44,332 bases of DNA, from positions 1-44,332 of the forward strand of contig JANXRS010000030.1 of the NCBI GenBank assembly GCA_025356745.1. Direction: 5' to 3'. Shown here piece after piece: positions 12,178 to 20,229 of this stretch. The position numbers and the translations under genes are program-made. The DNA is from Arcicella sp. Its GTDB lineage: Bacteria > Bacteroidota > Bacteroidia > Cytophagales > Spirosomataceae. The notes beneath the pieces are model-generated. The model was given only the letters and a program-made list of their open reading frames with translations. It ran no database searches and was not told the origin of the DNA. How positions within the stretch are numbered: position 1 is the first letter of the stretch; each line of letters opens with the position of its first letter.

Positions 12178-12364
12178 TTCGTTTTTTTTTCAAAAATAGA
12201 AAAAAGATATTACGTTTTTATCCTGTGTTTGTGTAAAAGCTTACTACTTGATATTACTATTACGCAAACAGATTCAAAAACCTCAATTTCATTTTTTTCA
12301 AAAAACTGTTTACCTTTCAAAAAAAAAGTATTCTAACTGTGTAAACTAAAACATTTTAGAAATC

Positions 12365-12940
12365 ATGAAAAAAAGTATCGTATTATTAAGCTTATTGATA
12401 GCTTTTTCTTTTGTAGCAGTATCCTTTGGACAAGATGAAATTGATTTCGGTAGAACAACACCTGTAATTTCAACCACTGGAAGTCATGGTAATAGAAATC
12501 ATGAAAAACAAATAATATGGAAGGCAGTTTACGTAAATCAAAAGACCGTTATTATTAAATTAATGAAAACTATCGATTGTGCCTATTTACTAAATATCGC
12601 TGCATTTGATGAAAGTGAGCAATTAATACCAATCAATAAAATTGATAAAACACAATTTAAAAAATTGAATATAGCAACAAAGGAAAGTATTATTATAGAA
12701 TTTAAAAAAAACATCAACGAAAACACAAAAATTAAATTTAAACTTGAATGGGATTTGAAACAATGTAATGATACTAATATTTTACCTAAGAGTAATAGTG
12801 CTAGAACATTCGCTCCCTCTTCAAAAACAAGCGAGCCTTCAGTAAGCTATAATTCAGAAGATTACTTTTATTTTCAAGTAAAGAGAATAAGAGACAAAAT
12901 TAAAGATGTAAAAATGCAAGATTCTCCCAATAACGAGTAA
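12365..12940 (+). CDS. Small secreted protein of unknown function
   Basis: A 191-residue protein with a signal peptide (MKKSIVLLSLLIAFSFVAVSFGQ). The mature part is basic and beta-rich up to about residue 140, with two cysteines (in TIDCAYLL and LKQCND) that may pair, followed by a Ser/Thr-rich linker and a short charged helix at the end. I do not recognise a family. It lies just upstream of the TPR-CHAT gene on the same strand, with a strong intrinsic terminator at 12958-13006 between them, so it is probably a separate transcript. Confidence 0.7.
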   Translation: MKKSIVLLSLLIAFSFVAVSFGQDEIDFGRTTPVISTTGSHGNRNHEKQIIWKAVYVNQKTVIIKLMKTIDCAYLLNIAAFDESEQLIPINKIDKTQFKKLNIATKESIIIEFKKNINENTKIKFKLEWDLKQCNDTNILPKSNSARTFAPSSKTSEPSVSYNSEDYFYFQVKRIRDKIKDVKMQDSPNNE

Positions 12941-12957: not shown

Positions 12958-13006
12958 AGTACAAAACCTCAATAATAGTATATTTTCGAGGTTTTGTACT
13001 ATTTTT
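12958..13006 (+). terminator. Intrinsic terminator after the small secreted protein
   Basis: A perfect 13-base stem (AGTACAAAACCTC at 12958-12970 with GAGGTTTTGTACT at 12988-13000), a 17-base loop, then ATTTTT. The T-run overlaps a TATTTTTG (13000-13007) that could be a -7 element for the following gene, but no matching TTTG was found upstream. Confidence 0.8.
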
Positions 13007-13031: not shown

Positions 13032-15845
13032 ATGAAAATCTTGCACCTTTTAATATTCATTCTTTTTAGTTTTTCATCTTTTACTCAAAACCAACCTTCT
13101 TCCTCGAAAGGTAAAAAGATGATTGATGAAGGTTATCAAAAATTTCTTAAAAATAATTATACACTAGCCATTTTGATTTTTGAAAATGCCGCAAAACAAT
13201 GTCAAATTGATAAAGATACCGCCGAGATTCTCCATGCTTTTAGTATGATTTATGGCGTTTTGAACACGCAAAGTAAACAACGAAATTTTCTCCAATATGA
13301 AAAAGTGTTGATTCCTTATTTATCTAATAAAAATAGTCAAGGAATCAGTATTTGTAATTGTTTAGGAGGAGCTTATCAGTCCAATTCAGATTTTGAAAAA
13401 GCCCAATTCTATTATGAATTAGCCATTAAAAAAATAAAAAGTCAAAAAAAAATTGATGACGAGTTGTTATACCATAGTGGAGTAAATAATAATTTGTTAG
13501 CAGGCTTACAAGTATTGCAAGGAGATTACGAAAAAGGCCTATTTAGTTATCAAGAATCACTCAATAGTTTTATTAAAATTAAAGAAAAATTGCCCTCTGA
13601 TTGGTTGGAAGTAAGTAAAGGATATTCTTTCATTTCAGATTTATATTTAAGGCAAAAACAATATCTTCAAGCAAACCAATTTCTACAAAAAGGTCATCAA
13701 TTCATCCAAAAAGAAGATTTTGATTCTCAAATTAGTTATCATAACACGATGGGGATCTTGCTTAAACCCAGTGCATTAAATAGATCCGACAGTGCTTTAT
13801 ATCACATCCAAGAAGCCTTGAGATTGCAAAGAAAATTCAATCTTGAAAACAAAATGGGCAGAACTTTTGAAATTTTGGGGCAATTGCAATACGAAAATAA
13901 AGAATTTAGTGTTGCCCAAAATAGTTTTGAAAAATCCCTCAATTATCGTTTACCTCAGTTCACTTTTCAAAATATCGCCTCTTCTGAAAAAAATATTGGC
14001 ATGGCTCTGTTTCAACAGAAACAATATTTATTTGCCCTCAATCACTTTCAGAAAGCCCTTCAATATATCTCAACCGATTTTAAATCCAATGATTTTACTG
14101 ATAATCCTAGTATTTCAAAATTGAAATATAAAAATGATGCGATTGAGATTTTGAAGGAAAAAATGGCTTCTTTATTGGCAATTTATCGCATTGAAAAGAA
14201 AACCATTTATTTAAAATCGGCTTTTTCAACAGCAAACACTTCTAAGCAACTAATTGATTATCAAAGAAATAGCTTTCAATTGACAGGTTCAAAGCTATTT
14301 TTGAGCCAACAAGCTCACGATATTTTCGGTTTAGGAATTGAAACCGCTTATCTACTTTTTGAATCTACAAAGGATGAACATTTTTTAGCCGAAGCGTTCA
14401 GATTTTCGGAAAGTAATAAAGCTGTTGTTCTCTATGAATCCGTGAAGGCTTCTCAAGTTTTTAATTTTCAAGGCGTGCCAAATGAGATGCTAAAAAGTGA
14501 ACATAAATTGATAAAAGATATGGCAGTTTTTGAAAATCAAATATATCAAGATGTTCAAAATGAAACGCAGTGGCGTAAAAAACTTTTAGAAACGACCGAT
14601 AAATTGAAACTATTGAAAGATGACTTTGAGAGAAACTATCCTACTTATTTTAAATATAAATACGATACAGAACCTATTACAATTCAAGAAATTCAATTAA
14701 AATTAAAGCCTGACAATCAGGGATTAATTGAATATTTTATTCAAAATAATACCCTGTTTACTTTCTTGATTACGGCAAAAAATATTCATTTTTTTAGACA
14801 AAATTTACCCGAAAATTTTAAGGAAGATATCATTGATTTTAAAACTAAAATTACTGAAAAATCAATCGATGAGCATTACAAAAACTTGTCTCTTGAGATT
14901 TATAAAACTCTATTTCCCGATAATATAAATCGTATTCTTAAGGCTGAAAAAATAGAGACAATAAAAATCATTGTTGATGGTGAACTCAACTATATTCCCT
15001 TTGAAAGTCTGTTTGTTAAACAACCTAAAAGCCTAAAAGAAATCAATATTTATCTGCTCGAAAAATACATTATTGGCTATTTGCCTTCTGCAACGATAAA
15101 TTGGAAAAATACCATTCCTAAAACAGACCAATCTATTTCATTGAAATATCTCGGTTTTGCTCCCAATTATAAAAAATTATTTGATTTGCCTCAAAATCAA
15201 GCGAATGTAGCTTTTTTATCTAACTTGTTTGAAGGAAAATCATTCGTAAAAGAAAAAGGAACAAAGTTCATTTTTGATAAACAATCTCAGAATCGTACAA
15301 AAGTATTACATTTATCCATGCACGCTGGGGCATCTTCAACCGACCCCATGGAATCCTATTTGGCATTCACCAAAGATAGCCTTTTTGTGCATGATATTTA
15401 TGCCCGAAATATCCCCACCGAATTAGCAATTTTGGATGCTTGCGAAACGGGTGTAGGTGTGCTGAACAGTGGCGAAGGCGTAATGAACCTCTCACGGGCA
15501 TTTATGCACGCTGGTAGTCAGGCAGTGGCAATGAGTTTATGGAAATTAACCAGTAGTTCCGAAACTTCGGAAATCATTCGAGATTTTGTTAGTTTAGTGG
15601 AAAATGGCAAACCTAAAGATGAGGCTTTAAGAACTGCTAAACTTAATTATTTGAGTAAATATCGCCAAGATTTAGTGCTTTCCCATCCATTTTATTGGTC
15701 GCCTTTGATTTTGGTAGGCAATGCTGATGCCATTGTGGAAAGGTCTTGGTTTTGGTGGATTTTGAGTGGCGTGGGAATCATATTTTTGATTGGTTTTTGG
15801 GTTTTAAAAAATAATAAACTTCTGAGCTTGTTTACCTTTAACTAA
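13032..15845 (+). CDS. Exported, membrane-anchored TPR-CHAT caspase-like protease
   Basis: A 937-residue protein. A signal peptide (residues 1-18) is followed by a long helical TPR array (about 30-430; for example the repeats FEKAQFYYELAIKKI and YLFALNHFQKALQYI), a coiled linker, and a CHAT domain (about 560-890). The catalytic pair of the family is present: His764 in LHLSMHAG and Cys804 in LDACETG. The following EGVMNLSRAFMHAGSQAVAMSLW is typical CHAT sequence. A single membrane helix near the end (about 911-928) with a short KNNKLL tail puts the protease in the periplasm, tied to the inner membrane. CHAT proteins are cysteine proteases of the caspase clan (separase, Csx29). It is followed by a sigma factor and a membrane protein on the same strand. 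Substrate unknown. Confidence 0.9.
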   Translation: MKILHLLIFILFSFSSFTQNQPSSSKGKKMIDEGYQKFLKNNYTLAILIFENAAKQCQIDKDTAEILHAFSMIYGVLNTQSKQRNFLQYEKVLIPYLSNKNSQGISICNCLGGAYQSNSDFEKAQFYYELAIKKIKSQKKIDDELLYHSGVNNNLLAGLQVLQGDYEKGLFSYQESLNSFIKIKEKLPSDWLEVSKGYSFISDLYLRQKQYLQANQFLQKGHQFIQKEDFDSQISYHNTMGILLKPSALNRSDSALYHIQEALRLQRKFNLENKMGRTFEILGQLQYENKEFSVAQNSFEKSLNYRLPQFTFQNIASSEKNIGMALFQQKQYLFALNHFQKALQYISTDFKSNDFTDNPSISKLKYKNDAIEILKEKMASLLAIYRIEKKTIYLKSAFSTANTSKQLIDYQRNSFQLTGSKLFLSQQAHDIFGLGIETAYLLFESTKDEHFLAEAFRFSESNKAVVLYESVKASQVFNFQGVPNEMLKSEHKLIKDMAVFENQIYQDVQNETQWRKKLLETTDKLKLLKDDFERNYPTYFKYKYDTEPITIQEIQLKLKPDNQGLIEYFIQNNTLFTFLITAKNIHFFRQNLPENFKEDIIDFKTKITEKSIDEHYKNLSLEIYKTLFPDNINRILKAEKIETIKIIVDGELNYIPFESLFVKQPKSLKEINIYLLEKYIIGYLPSATINWKNTIPKTDQSISLKYLGFAPNYKKLFDLPQNQANVAFLSNLFEGKSFVKEKGTKFIFDKQSQNRTKVLHLSMHAGASSTDPMESYLAFTKDSLFVHDIYARNIPTELAILDACETGVGVLNSGEGVMNLSRAFMHAGSQAVAMSLWKLTSSSETSEIIRDFVSLVENGKPKDEALRTAKLNYLSKYRQDLVLSHPFYWSPLILVGNADAIVERSWFWWILSGVGIIFLIGFWVLKNNKLLSLFTFN

Positions 15846-15860
15846 ATAATCCATTCACTA

Positions 15861-15890
15861 TTTGAGAATCGGATAGATTAAGTATATTTA
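15861..15890 (+). promoter_or_regulatory. Possible promoter of the sigma factor gene
   Basis: TTTG at 15861-15864 and TATATTTA at 15883-15890 with an 18-base spacer. The -7 element has one mismatch to TAnnTTTG and the spacing is a little short. The start codon is 33 bases downstream. It is also possible that the gene is read through from the CHAT gene, which ends only 77 bases before the start. Confidence 0.3.
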
Positions 15891-15922
15891 TGTGGCTAAT
15901 TAACCATATAATTTATATAATT

Positions 15923-16465
15923 ATGAATCAAACCGAATTTAGGTCTTTCTATAACGATTGCTGGAAATATTGCAAGCCCCGTTTAAGAAACCTGACAAAC
16001 AATCAAGCCGATATTGATGATGTTTTTTCCGAAGCTATTTCACGCTTTTGGGTGAATGTGCAAAGGGGGAAAATCGCCCATGCTGATAATCATTTCGCTC
16101 TGGTTTATGTGATGGCGAAAAATATGTGGTTGGGTAATTTACGGAAAGAAAAACACTTTATCGGGGTATCTATTGATGCCCGAAAAGGCGAAGATTTTGA
16201 AATACAATTACCTACCGAGGAGCAAAATTTTTTGACCAAAATGATTCAAGAAAAAGACGATTATCAACAAGAAAATAGTATTCACAATGCTTGGGGGAAA
16301 TTGGATGATAAATGTAGAGATTTACTGAATGCAACCATTGTTTATAAAGAAAAACAGGAAGAATTATTGAGCAAAATGAATTTCAAAAACACTGATACTG
16401 TGAAAGCCACGAAGTATAGATGTTTACAATACTTGAAGAAATATTACTACGAAATTGCCGCATAA
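15923..16465 (+). CDS. ECF-type RNA polymerase sigma factor
   Basis: A 180-residue sigma-70 family protein, starting at the second in-frame ATG (MNQTEFRSFY), because the 11 residues before it are hydrophobic and unlike the family. Region 2 is visible around ADIDDVFSEAISRFWVNVQRG, and region 4 around DDKCRDLLNATIVYKEKQEELLSKMNF and the ATKYRCLQYLKKYYY helix, where the second helix would read the -35 element. It lies 77 bases after the TPR-CHAT gene and 5 bases before a one-pass membrane protein that looks like its anti-sigma factor. The family call is good, though region 2 is divergent; the target promoters are unknown. Confidence 0.85.
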   Translation: MNQTEFRSFYNDCWKYCKPRLRNLTNNQADIDDVFSEAISRFWVNVQRGKIAHADNHFALVYVMAKNMWLGNLRKEKHFIGVSIDARKGEDFEIQLPTEEQNFLTKMIQEKDDYQQENSIHNAWGKLDDKCRDLLNATIVYKEKQEELLSKMNFKNTDTVKATKYRCLQYLKKYYYEIAA

Positions 16466-16470
16466 AAATC

Positions 16471-17175
16471 ATGAAAAATAACGACAATACGAACATTATC
16501 GAAGCTTATTTAAACAACGAATTGGCAGGAAATGAACAAATTGCTTTTGAAAATCGGATTGAATTAGAACCCGATTTGCTGGAAGAAATTGTGCTTCATC
16601 GTCAGATTCGGGAATTTGTGAAGGAAAACGAAATCCATAACCTTAAAAGTCAAGTAAAAAATTGGATATTGGAAGAAAAAGAGGACGTAAAAATGAAAAA
16701 AATAGCCTTTTTTTCAAGAACAAATCTCCTCAGAATTGCCGCTTCATTAGTATTGATTTCGGGTTTGGCTTGGCTTTATTTTAATTCACAATCATCTGGT
16801 AATCAATATTTTGCAGAACTCGTTCAACAGAACCCTAGCACACTTCAAGGTAATGACGATAGAAGTAATTGGACACAATTGTTTCGAGAAAAAAAGTACG
16901 CTAAGGTAATTTCGATTTTAAATAAAAAGGAAATAAAAACTTCTGAAGAGGTCTATTATTTGGGATTATCTTACGCTGCCGAAACCAATTATTCAAAAGC
17001 CATTATCCAATTTTCTACAATCATTTTGCAAGATAGTGTGTATGCTGAAAAAGCCAATTGGGCCATGGCATTGGTCTTTTTAAAACAAAATGATGAGAAT
17101 TTAGCAAAGCCTTTATTAGAAAAAATTTCGGATAGCGATTCTGAATTTAGTGAAAAGGCAAAAGATTTGTTATAG
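16471..17175 (+). CDS. One-pass membrane protein with TPR-like periplasmic part, probable anti-sigma factor
   Basis: A 234-residue protein; the ATG at 16471 (MKNNDN), 5 bases after the sigma stop, is preferred over an earlier one inside the sigma gene. The N-terminal 80 residues are cytoplasmic and acidic, with the pattern IIEAYLNNELAGNEQIAFENRI and LLEEIVLHRQI seen in Bacteroidota anti-sigma-like proteins. One membrane helix (about 87-104, RIAASLVLISGLAWLYF) leads to a periplasmic domain of about 130 residues with two or more TPR-like helical pairs (EVYYLGLSYAAETNYSKAIIQF). Gene order sigma then membrane protein fits a sigma/anti-sigma pair. Its periplasmic part is a plausible substrate or partner of the neighbouring CHAT protease. 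That link is inference. Confidence 0.75.
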   Translation: MKNNDNTNIIEAYLNNELAGNEQIAFENRIELEPDLLEEIVLHRQIREFVKENEIHNLKSQVKNWILEEKEDVKMKKIAFFSRTNLLRIAASLVLISGLAWLYFNSQSSGNQYFAELVQQNPSTLQGNDDRSNWTQLFREKKYAKVISILNKKEIKTSEEVYYLGLSYAAETNYSKAIIQFSTIILQDSVYAEKANWAMALVFLKQNDENLAKPLLEKISDSDSEFSEKAKDLL

Positions 17176-17346: not shown

Positions 17347-17462
17347 ATTCAAAATTTTTCTAAAAAGGTGTTTACCTCCATTCACTTTCTGTATTCATAC
17401 ATCAGAAAGCAAAAACCAGAATCGGCTGAAAGGATTAGGTTTATTTTTTAAATTATTATACC

Positions 17463-18353
17463 ATGAAAAAATTATTTTCGATTATCGTAATGTTATTGTT
17501 TATTACCAATGTTTTTGCTCAAGAAAGAACAGTTGCAACGCCCAAAACAGAAGCCCTACAAATGCAGGATATTACTTGGGAGACTAATGTTGGCAAAGAG
17601 TGTTTTTGTTGTAGTGATAAAGTTTACAACTTGCCAAAACCTCCTCCAATTTCTGGTTCATCGGTATTGAAATGTACTGAAAAAGCTACTTTCACAACCT
17701 TGAAATGTGAAGGAGCCGTGATTAAATGGAATGTCTCGCCAGCAGTTAGTTTTACTGGACAAGGCACAAATTCAATTACGCTTATGCCCCCCTTTAATGC
17801 GATAAATTACTCTATTTCAGTAGTAATTAAATGTGGGAATAAAGTAGTTGAAAACAAGATAGCAGTTCAAGTTCAGGAAGATAAAAAATGTGTTGCCGAC
17901 TTCAAAGTTTTATCAATCACTGCAAACTCAGCCAATAACGGCTATGAAGTATTGGCAACTCCTACTACAGGTGCTGGTTATATGCATTTTTGGCAATTAT
18001 TACAAGTTTCATCATGCAGCAATGGCACAGTGACGGGTTCAAGCGGTGGATGGTATCTATTTATTAATGTAAATGGTTCAATCAGTACTTCAAATTTAGC
18101 CATATCAGGCGGGCCAACGGGTTATGGTTATCAATATTCAGGGCTTGGAGCGGGCGTTTGTTATCAGATTGTTCATTATATTTATTGCTGTGGACAATGG
18201 AAAAAACAAACTAGTTGCTTCTGTACACCAACACCTTCTGCAAAGAAAATGTATAAAACTAGCGAATTAGAAATTAACTCAAAATTGGAAGATGTTTTGG
18301 AAAAAGATTTACCAAAAGAATTAAAAGCTGCCATGAGAGAAATTAAGGACTAA
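17463..18353 (+). CDS. Cysteine-rich secreted protein with PKD-like modules
   Basis: A 296-residue protein with signal peptide MKKLFSIIVMLLFITNVFAQ. The mature protein has many cysteines in small clusters (ECFCCSD near residue 48, then CTEK, LKCEG, IKCGN, and late IYCCGQW and SCFCTP), giving a probable disulfide-rich fold. The middle (KWNVSPAVSFTGQGTNSITLMPP) has the look of a PKD/Ig-like module. The last 35 residues are charged and helical (ELEINSKLEDVLEKDLPKEL), with no CHU_C tail. I do not recognise a family. It is downstream of the sigma/anti-sigma pair on the same strand, beyond a terminator, so it might be part of that regulon. Confidence 0.7.
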   Translation: MKKLFSIIVMLLFITNVFAQERTVATPKTEALQMQDITWETNVGKECFCCSDKVYNLPKPPPISGSSVLKCTEKATFTTLKCEGAVIKWNVSPAVSFTGQGTNSITLMPPFNAINYSISVVIKCGNKVVENKIAVQVQEDKKCVADFKVLSITANSANNGYEVLATPTTGAGYMHFWQLLQVSSCSNGTVTGSSGGWYLFINVNGSISTSNLAISGGPTGYGYQYSGLGAGVCYQIVHYIYCCGQWKKQTSCFCTPTPSAKKMYKTSELEINSKLEDVLEKDLPKELKAAMREIKD

Positions 18354-18527: not shown

Positions 18528-19451
18528 ATGAAAACGTTATTATCGCTCCTTAGTTTATGTTTCGTTTTTAATATGTATTCCCAAACTGATAGCACGAATG
18601 CCGAACCCGAAATTAAGTGGGAAAAATCTTTTGGCTTGGGTCTGAGTTTGAGCCATACGCTTAACATAAATCCTCCTGCCATTTCTGCTCCCAAAGAAGG
18701 TTTTGGCAGTACTGTCTCGGTTGATGCTATGCTCAATTATATCAAAGAAAATAGCCGTTTCCAGATGAGAAATGATTTATCTTGGACGATGGCATTGTAT
18801 AAAGCTAATAGTCAAATGCCAACTCAAAATACCTCGGATATTCTTTTGACTAATCACGATTTTGCCTTGTCGTTCCAAAAAAGTGGTAATTGGTATTTTA
18901 ACTTAATTTTAAATACGGAAACTTCTATTTTGACCCTTTTTGAGGATAATTATCTTCGTGACCAAAATGCACTCGGACCCATTCAAAGTTTTTTGAATCC
19001 TTACGCTGTTACGATTAATCCAGGCATTAAATATGAAATAAATAAGGGTTTAGGCATTTCTATTTCACCTTACGTATTGAAAATCAGGGGTGTGACGAGC
19101 CAATCCATTGCCGACAAAGATATTTTTTTTCAAGATAAAGACAACAGAATTTTGTCGGATGGACATTACAAAAAGACCTTTCAAGAAGAATTGGGAGCAG
19201 GTTTACAAATTTGGATAGATAAAAGAATTGGCAAATGGCTTGCGATTAATTACAAGATAATTGCCAACTCAAATTATTTAGAAAACATATTCAAAAATGG
19301 CACAATTACGGGACAGTTTACTACTAATTTATTTGTCTACAAAGGCTTTGGCATTACCCACAAGGGGCTTTTGAAAGGTAATTTTGCTCAATCTCCCTTT
19401 AAGCCATTTTACAATCAGGTGATTGTATTGAGTTATAAATTTGCAAAATAA
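18528..19451 (+). CDS. DUF3078 outer-membrane beta-barrel protein
   Basis: A 307-residue protein starting at MKTLLSLLSLCFVFNMYSQ (ATG 18528; a TTG-started longer form gives an unlikely N-terminus). The signal peptide is followed by a barrel-like sequence with the family features IKWEKSFGLGLSLSHT at the N-terminus and FYNQVIVLSYKFAK at the C-terminus. DUF3078 proteins are predicted outer-membrane barrels found mainly in Bacteroidota; their role is not established. It follows the inverted repeat at 18393-18457 and is 58 bases before the lipoprotein gene, so those two are probably co-transcribed. Confidence 0.8.
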   Translation: MKTLLSLLSLCFVFNMYSQTDSTNAEPEIKWEKSFGLGLSLSHTLNINPPAISAPKEGFGSTVSVDAMLNYIKENSRFQMRNDLSWTMALYKANSQMPTQNTSDILLTNHDFALSFQKSGNWYFNLILNTETSILTLFEDNYLRDQNALGPIQSFLNPYAVTINPGIKYEINKGLGISISPYVLKIRGVTSQSIADKDIFFQDKDNRILSDGHYKKTFQEELGAGLQIWIDKRIGKWLAINYKIIANSNYLENIFKNGTITGQFTTNLFVYKGFGITHKGLLKGNFAQSPFKPFYNQVIVLSYKFAK

Positions 19452-19509
19452 AATTGTCTGAATTATGCAAATAAGAACGTCCGACTACATTTTAAAACCT
19501 TTCAAAAAA

Positions 19510-20229
19510 ATGAAACCATATATTTTTTTCCTTCTAATATTTGGCTTACTCATGGCTTGCGAGTCGCCCGATGTATGCATGAGTAATTGTTCCAATAAAC
19601 GCCTTCGTTTTATTGACAATGGAGTCAATTTTAATCGAATTATTTATGATGATAATAATCGTCAAATCAATTATATTAAAGGTATTGTTCCTTTTACTAC
19701 TTATTCTTACAACAATTTGGATGCTAAGAAAACTCAAGGGACTAACATTACAACGTATGTTTTAAATGATGGATTAGTCCCCCATTTTTCATTGGTAATA
19801 TCCTCTGCCACATCATTGTTAAACCTAGTAAATTCATATAGTTATGATGCCGCAGGGCAACTAATTTATAGCAGTGAAACGCAAACGCCTCAAGTTATCA
19901 ATTATTCATATACTTGGCAAAATGGAAACTTGATTTTAACCTCTTTCAAAAAGCAACCTGGCAATATTACTATCTATCTCAAGTATGAGTATTATACCGA
20001 TATTACTAACAGTTTGGGCAATGAATTTGTAGGGCTTCAATTGTTTGGAAAAAGCTCAAAAAATGCAGTAAAACGTATTACACAATCATTTAGTAACGGC
20101 AATCCAATGATTATTACAACCTTTGAGTATAAGAAAGATTTGTGTGGTTGCATTACCTATTCAAAAGAGACAGATAATAATAAAGTTATTACAGACAAAA
20201 CTTATATTTATGAGAAAATTATTGAATAA
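19510..20229 (+). CDS. Lipoprotein with YD-like beta repeats
   Basis: A 239-residue protein from the ATG at 19510 (MKPYIFFLLIFGLLMACESPD), chosen because it gives a normal lipoprotein signal with lipobox LMAC. The body has YSYDAAGQLIYSSE and TYSKETDNNKVITDKTYIYEK, reminiscent of YD-type strands seen in Rhs-like and DUF4595-like proteins of this phylum. A CxCxC-like pattern (DLCGCITY) is near the end. It probably sits in the inner or outer leaflet facing the periplasm or surface. It closes the same-strand run that starts with the CHAT gene, and converges with the lipoprotein at 20305. Confidence 0.7.
   Translation: MKPYIFFLLIFGLLMACESPDVCMSNCSNKRLRFIDNGVNFNRIIYDDNNRQINYIKGIVPFTTYSYNNLDAKKTQGTNITTYVLNDGLVPHFSLVISSATSLLNLVNSYSYDAAGQLIYSSETQTPQVINYSYTWQNGNLILTSFKKQPGNITIYLKYEYYTDITNSLGNEFVGLQLFGKSSKNAVKRITQSFSNGNPMIITTFEYKKDLCGCITYSKETDNNKVITDKTYIYEKIIE

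Follow-up and report, generated by a model that had tools for sequence, protein, structure and literature searches.

A 44,332-nucleotide stretch of the Arcicella sp. genome (contig JANXRS010000030.1 of GCA_025356745.1; hereafter, the window) carries three consecutive genes on the same strand, which encode an exported TPR-CHAT protease, an extracytoplasmic function (ECF)-like sigma factor, and a one-pass membrane protein resembling an anti-sigma factor. Based on sequence and structural modeling, we consider it probable that the CHAT protease cuts the linker of the anti-sigma-like protein in the periplasm and thereby releases an autoregulated local regulon, making the trio a membrane signalling switch. 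An initial annotation had described this gene arrangement, which was confirmed at the same open reading frame (ORF) coordinates, and had suggested periplasmic cleavage of the anti-sigma protein by CHAT. That interpretation is partly supported: the trio is real and conserved and most likely constitutes a periplasmic CHAT-controlled sigma switch, but the unit extends beyond the three genes named there. The trio is a conserved Bacteroidota association that also includes a subtilase gene, found at 23 of 61 family loci, and exported neighbours, with promoter-like sites at neighbouring exported genes and at the sigma gene itself.

A profile search of the window protein assigned residues 622–897 of the first gene product to the CHAT domain (PF12770, 135.2 bits against a cut-off of 24) and detected three TPR_12 stretches in its TPR part. 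Inspection of the residues confirmed the annotated catalytic pair, with His at position 764 and Cys at position 804. The C-terminal membrane helix was recovered both by hydropathy and at residues 906–927 of the AlphaFold model, which is confident (mean pLDDT 89.3, pTM 0.89). By hydropathy only, the N-terminus is hydrophobic and ends in ...SFTQNQ, and the C-terminal hydrophobic segment is followed by KNNK. The solved structures most similar to the model are those of Csx29/TPR-CHAT (7y83_D, Z 32.6, rmsd 11.1 over 587 aligned residues; 8eey_B, Z 32.2), followed in order by separase (5u1s_A, Z 28.6), DdvA (8rw5, Z 23.5) and gingipain R (4ief_B, Z 19.1); the large rmsd is presumably due to the long and bent TPR part. 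The His and Cys are invariant in all 63 CHAT proteins of the family set and in all 82 paired CHAT proteins of a divergent set that includes the window protein, so the catalytic residues of the annotation are kept in relatives. A simple hydropathy scan found a hydrophobic C-terminus in 62 of the 63 family-set proteins, the exception being the second CHAT of locus L087. One PF12770 match is present in the Arcicella sp. genome, which is 88% complete. The protein is predicted to sit in the periplasm, with its C-terminal helix tethering it to the inner membrane, and is probably an active, outward-facing protease.

The second gene likely starts at ATG 15923, its longest frame opening at 15890. The encoded protein scores slightly below the cut-off of TIGR02937 (40.3 versus 42.9 bits) and below that of Sigma70_r2 (17.8 versus 24 bits); against the CASP-sigma family NF041236 it reaches 17.2 bits, below the cut-off of 100. 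The corresponding protein at locus L134 passes Sigma70_r2 (41.6 versus 24), and the one at L094, the nearest relative of the window locus, gave no match. The assignment of the window protein is weak when taken alone, yet the protein appears to belong to the sigma family that adjoins CHAT in relatives. Five bases separate the end of this gene from the next ATG (16471) on the same strand. The annotated succession of a sigma-70 family protein and a one-pass TPR membrane protein thus stands, with sigma profile scores below the cut-offs.

The model of the third protein (mean pLDDT 84.7, pTM 0.57) comprises head helices between residues 2 and 71, a membrane helix at 83–106, and TPR helices from residue 129, the TPR fold being matched with Z 13.5 and rmsd 1.9 over 107 aligned residues. 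When the anti-sigma profile was compared with Protein Data Bank (PDB) sequences, the best stretches fell in the TPR part (positions ≥126) for the best 60 of 111 matches. The protein has the hallmarks of a membrane anti-sigma factor, namely a gene directly 3' of the sigma gene, a predicted cytosolic head and a single membrane helix, its sidedness being deduced. From the model and hydropathy, the TPR domain would lie in the periplasm, while the head would hold the sigma factor in the cytosol. Variants of this architecture occur elsewhere. The protein encoded at L166:506-2026 has 506 residues and apparently several repeated head modules before the membrane helix. Near CHAT genes at L036:10544-11929 and L063:13378-14817, a sigma gene is followed by a protein of 461–479 residues that has a single membrane helix and a C-terminus that looks barrel-like by eye; these two proteins recall the Reo anti-sigma factor of PMC13114119.

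With the TPR domains of both proteins predicted to share one side of the membrane, CHAT could also bind the TPR part of the anti-sigma protein and serve as a sensor or scaffold without any proteolysis, and DdvA, in which a CHAT domain lies inside the anti-sigma chain, would be a precedent. We regard this explanation as improbable, because a scaffold would not need the His and Cys that are invariant in the paired CHAT proteins.

To place the trio in a wider context, we surveyed CHAT relatives, which were found (E ≤ 1e-20) in 111 of 200 genomes of the family. Sixty family loci were picked by hand from these 111 genomes, as a rule the best place per genome, and phylum loci were the top 20 among 104 matching genomes. 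L094 (a duplicate of L032), L155 (a duplicate of L036) and L271, in which CHAT is broken, were dropped; L171 and L253, the same locus and one without a pair, were counted once among the resulting 176 distinct loci. A pair was defined as a sigma gene followed directly by an anti-sigma-like gene inside the fetched flanks. Such pairs were present at 111 of the 176 CHAT loci, 101 of them less than 3 kb from CHAT, compared with 1 of 20 random regions of family genomes, where the anti-sigma match was weak (E 2e-7). Coincidental adjacency is ruled out by this difference, and rare or random co-occurrence, the outcome that would have spoken against the initial annotation, was not borne out. By set, pairs were found at 54/61 family loci, 13/20 phylum loci, 14/19 loci of a last, family-weighted set, and 30/77 loci of the genome_contigs similarity set, which contains many short contigs. 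Judged by record titles and tree labels, the paired loci span Flavobacteriaceae, Saprospiraceae, Bacteroidales and Cytophagales; one paired contig belongs to Ignavibacteriota, with weak sigma and anti-sigma matches. Orientation varies among the paired family loci (n = 54). CHAT and the pair converge at 25 and diverge at seven; where they share a strand, the pair is upstream at 18 loci and downstream at four, including the window.

The subtilase-like genes directly upstream of CHAT were recognized by a GTSxA-type motif, and all five that were tested match Peptidase_S8. At the other 38 of the 61 family loci no subtilase was found directly upstream by this motif-based criterion, nor was the motif found in the window ORFs. 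About half of the subtilases lack a hydrophobic N-terminus by eye; therefore, the subtilase may be cytosolic, with CHAT outside.

Anti-sigma-like proteins diverge widely, but the linker C-terminal to the membrane helix keeps a dipeptide. Arg-[GSNDA] is found in the linker of 58 of 61 pairs outside a clade that has Met instead (shuffled linkers: mean 28.9, maximum 41 in 1000), compared with 14/61 in the downstream TPR segments. The remaining 21 pairs all have Met-[DGSN] (shuffle mean 9.4, maximum 17). As for cross-occurrence, Met-small was seen in 2 of the 61 non-Met-clade pairs and Arg-small in 4 of the 21 Met pairs. Column 725 of CHAT is divided in the same way: in the 61 Arg-group pairs it is Glu in 58, Asn in two and a gap in one, whereas all 21 Met pairs have Ala, Ser, Thr or Val there and never Glu. 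Column 762, two before the His, is Ala or Ser (one Gln) in the Arg group versus Phe, Tyr, Leu or Ile in the Met group, and further columns, such as 846, also distinguish the two groups.

In clan CD proteases, S1 specificity sits in alpha-1/L1, L4 and L5; in RgpB, the alpha-1 residue Asp163 salt-bridges the P1 Arg, and the potential S1 pocket of TbMCA2 consists of Cys92 and Asp95 (alpha-1), Ser156 (L3) and Asp211 (L4) (PMC4357240). In the CHAT model, residue 725 lies in helix 720–732, which by order would be alpha-1, residue 762 ends the strand before His764, and residue 802 ends the strand before Cys804. By their order and distance to the His and Cys, these three columns appear to match the clan CD S1 places, and column 725 is likely an S1 pocket residue. 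The covariation of the linker dipeptide with this column supports, at the level of sequence, a CHAT cut of the anti-sigma protein on the periplasmic side.

Twenty-seven later pairs were scored with the pattern unchanged. All 17 with Glu725 have Arg-small; among the ten with a non-acidic residue at 725, eight have Met-small and two Leu-Gly, one of the ten also having Arg-Ala further on. One of the eight Met pairs (L281 at 3811) contains a distant anti-sigma protein that is probably not the partner of CHAT, and another of these later additions, L285, is closely related to L077. In the best of the CHAT trees, which are quick trees, locus L264 (Ala725 with Met-Ser) falls outside the Met clade and is likely an independent second co-switch, with a single clade not rejected by the approximately unbiased (AU) test (p 0.287).

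Several findings weigh against cleavage by CHAT. The linker pattern was chosen after the first 82 pairs had been viewed. As the Met group otherwise forms one clade, co-switches are few, at most two or three. Pairs occur at only 30 of the 77 genome_contigs loci. The window site itself is atypical, combining Asn725 with Asp802 and an Arg131 at the predicted start of a helix; in the model, this Arg already lies within the first turn of helix 129–139. In the nearest relative of the window CHAT, as in the window, Asp802 accompanies Asn725 and the linker Arg-Ser is retained, which fits an acid supplied from the other S1 position. L057 has no clear linker site, and L137 and L167 have Lys. Among 20 regions selected because they hold anti-sigma relatives at a distance from known CHAT places, three (L217, L220 and L226) turned out to contain CHAT. 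Several relatives that do not adjoin CHAT, and stand beside a neighbour of about 300 residues with weak matches to the CHAT profile, keep an Arg near the equivalent position, mostly without a Gly after it. Arg-Gly is present at L227, where the stretch yielded no CHAT, and Met-type pairs lack an adjoining CHAT at L210, L222–L225 and L229, with a subtilase beside the pair at L223. The linker Arg alone was rejected as a CHAT-specific mark, since relatives not beside CHAT also have it.

The lone Met-type pair at L210 is a second pair of the same Arcicella sp. genome, without CHAT on its 5.4-kb contig (G000:C63:1-5422); further genomes of the genus (L222–L225) contain comparable pairs that no CHAT gene adjoins. 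At least one genome with such a pair carries a subtilase-CHAT locus elsewhere (G088, with L222 and L036).

CHAT might act in the same pathway without cutting the anti-sigma protein, as an effector or by processing another envelope protein, with the sigma factor freed by the subtilase or by a DegS- or site-2-like protease (DegS is a serine protease). The subtilase gene directly upstream of CHAT at 23 of the 61 family loci and the linker Arg kept in some pairs away from CHAT both speak for this possibility. We nevertheless consider it unlikely, as most family loci (38/61) show no such subtilase and the linker residue tracks the CHAT S1 column, the later loci included.

The predicted regulon rests on promoter-like sites. 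The pattern TGTTTACCT-N14/15-ATTC has three exact copies in the whole Arcicella sp. genome (4.57 Mb), every one in this locus, and four in the genome of the nearest relative (G074, 5.4 Mb), every one in the matching locus; the reversed pattern is absent from both genomes, and shuffled windows gave a mean of 0.01. In the Pelagihabitans genome of L119, TGTTAACC-N15/16-CATAAA has five matches, four of them in the locus region, with one match for the reversed control. Five Aquimarina genomes have 8, 18, 7, 10 and 8 matches to GGTAACAW-N13-15-ACATWAA, of which 6, 8, 5, 3 and 6, respectively, lie within ~26 kb of CHAT (reversed controls 2, 1, 1, 1 and 0); no such site precedes the sigma gene in the L132 genome. 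Among the predicted Aquimarina targets are RHS-repeat proteins and one protein that carries a type IX secretion tail. Because the patterns were read off the loci, matches inside them arise partly by construction; what counts as the test is how rarely the patterns occur in the rest of the genome. A generic test for bipartite motifs shared between the upstream regions of sigma genes and neighbours was not significant (89/121 loci, 80.1 expected); therefore, the promoter claims rest on the named loci only. The sites at these loci point to sigma control of neighbouring exported-protein genes and of the sigma gene itself. One predicted target in the nearest relative (L094:12652-13353) is an exported protein of 233 residues that has a glycine-zipper-like stretch close to the C-terminus.

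In neither the window nor L094 is CHAT itself preceded directly by a promoter-like site, although the gene immediately upstream of CHAT has one in both. CHAT is therefore probably made independently, unless there is read-through from that gene. In the window, a terminator-like inverted repeat followed by a T-rich stretch (12960–12998, by eye) lies between the gene for the 191-residue exported protein and CHAT; since it separates the two, CHAT may have its own promoter. That the CHAT gene is just one of many targets or neighbours of the sigma factor, with no mechanism linking them, is very improbable. The variable gene order and orientation over the 54 family loci would suit this explanation, as would read-through from the site upstream; against it are the lack of a site directly before CHAT, the adjacency far above that in random regions, and the linker–S1 correlation, which neighbourhood alone does not explain.

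Table 1. Features of the window and loci with a subtilase gene upstream of CHAT.
Feature	Position or loci	Strand	Description
Exported TPR-CHAT protease	13032..15845	+	signal-peptide-like start, TPR array ~24-474, CHAT 622-897, His764/Cys804, membrane helix 906-927
ECF-like sigma factor, 180 aa from ATG 15923	15923..16465	+	profile scores below cut-offs, relatives beside CHAT
Anti-sigma-like one-pass membrane protein, 234 aa	16471..17175	+	predicted cytosolic helical head, membrane helix 83-106 (16717-16788), predicted periplasmic TPR
Candidate scissile bond Arg131-Ser132	16861..16866	+	predicted, periplasmic linker
Promoter-like site TGTTTACCT-N14-ATTC	12307..12333	+	upstream of 191-aa exported protein
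Promoter-like site TGTTTACCT-N15-ATTC	15829..15856	+	upstream of sigma gene, overlaps CHAT gene end
Promoter-like site TGTTTACCT-N15-ATTC	17369..17396	+	upstream of 296-aa exported protein
Predicted target, 191-aa exported protein	12365..12940	+	no match above family cut-off
Predicted target, 296-aa exported protein	17463..18353	+	weak PKD-like match
Possible further target, DUF3078 protein	18534..19451	+	L094 (G074) orthologue preceded by a promoter-like site of its own
Possible further target, exported protein	19465..20229	+	orthologue also in L032/L094
Loci with subtilase upstream of CHAT, part 1	L036, L040, L041, L043-L045, L047, L048, L051, L052, L054, L056		
Loci with subtilase upstream of CHAT, part 2	L058-L060, L064, L065, L072-L074, L076, L086, L090		

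Based on these data, we propose a probable mechanism for the switch, in which CHAT is the protease that cuts the anti-sigma-like protein. First, the head of the anti-sigma-like protein would retain the sigma factor in the cytosol, with its TPR domain reaching into the periplasm. The protease would then be activated by a signal at the envelope or surface, perhaps through the long TPR array of CHAT, the likely sensor. CHAT would cut the linker between the membrane helix and the TPR domain of the anti-sigma-like protein after Arg or Lys, or after Met or Leu in the mostly subtilase-linked clade. Loss of head stability would follow, probably through further proteolysis of the kind proposed for other regulated systems. 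Finally, the freed sigma factor would transcribe its own gene and the neighbouring exported-protein genes. There is about an even chance that this scheme describes a phylum-wide Bacteroidota envelope family, in which CHAT and the anti-sigma protein co-evolved their cleavage specificity from basic residues to Met/Leu, with a subtilase acting as second protease in some cases, to govern a small autoregulated island of exported proteins. If so, CHAT-controlled sigma release would be a general, CRISPR-independent principle, and the Csx29/Csx30 logic, hitherto tied to CRISPR, would extend to a widespread envelope pathway. A large class of bacterial caspase relatives, so far uncharacterised, would then gain a likely substrate, and the cut site, specificity residue and regulon would be predictable from sequence.

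A literature search found no account of the Bacteroidota CHAT/sigma/anti-sigma trio, although an earlier mention is possible. Defence-system membership was considered and rejected: a PADLOC scan of 13 distinct window proteins, a subset of the window ORFs, gave no match, in agreement with the annotated absence of cas genes nearby; one relative's CHAT matched BovA weakly (1.7e-05).

Several known systems share parts of this design. ECF54 neighbourhoods contain a subtilase and CHAT, and proteolytic control has been proposed for them; they are described as lacking an anti-sigma factor (PMC8999054), whereas the window has a membrane anti-sigma-like gene and no subtilase motif in its ORFs. As in RseA/DegS and EcfO/Reo, a membrane-spanning anti-sigma factor would be tied to envelope stress; the descriptions of EcfO/Reo consulted mention no CHAT protease. 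Separase and gingipain R, clan CD proteases that cut after Arg (gingipains after Arg or Lys; PMC4357240), share the caspase fold of CHAT but differ in partners and roles.

The Myxococcus xanthus sigma factor DdvS has DdvA as its anti-sigma factor (PMC4374960) and governs an island that holds CBASS and CRISPR-Cas systems (PMC12288465); structures of DdvS/DdvA are available (PDB 8rot and 8rw5; 10.1126/sciadv.adp1053). As is predicted for the trio, an ECF sigma factor is combined there with a transmembrane anti-sigma factor, and the CHAT domain of DdvA aligns with the His and Cys motifs. DdvA, however, unites CHAT and anti-sigma parts in one chain of 991 residues, whereas the window has separate genes. 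In type III-E CRISPR systems, Csx29 cuts Csx30, the inhibitor of CASP-sigma, and autoregulation has been proposed; Csx30 is cut between residues 427 and 429, and an alanine scan identified no essential residue, although deletion of Met427 stops cleavage (PMC10028731). The trio likewise combines a TPR-CHAT protease, a putative sigma inhibitor and an ECF-like sigma factor, and Csx29 is the best structural match of the CHAT model, with an rmsd above 10. In contrast to type III-E, the window CHAT is predicted to be exported and membrane-anchored, no Cas protein is among the 13 scanned proteins, and the putative Bacteroidota inhibitor is a one-pass TPR membrane protein with a conserved basic or Met linker residue. 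Csx29/Csx30 and DdvA are thus the closest known systems.

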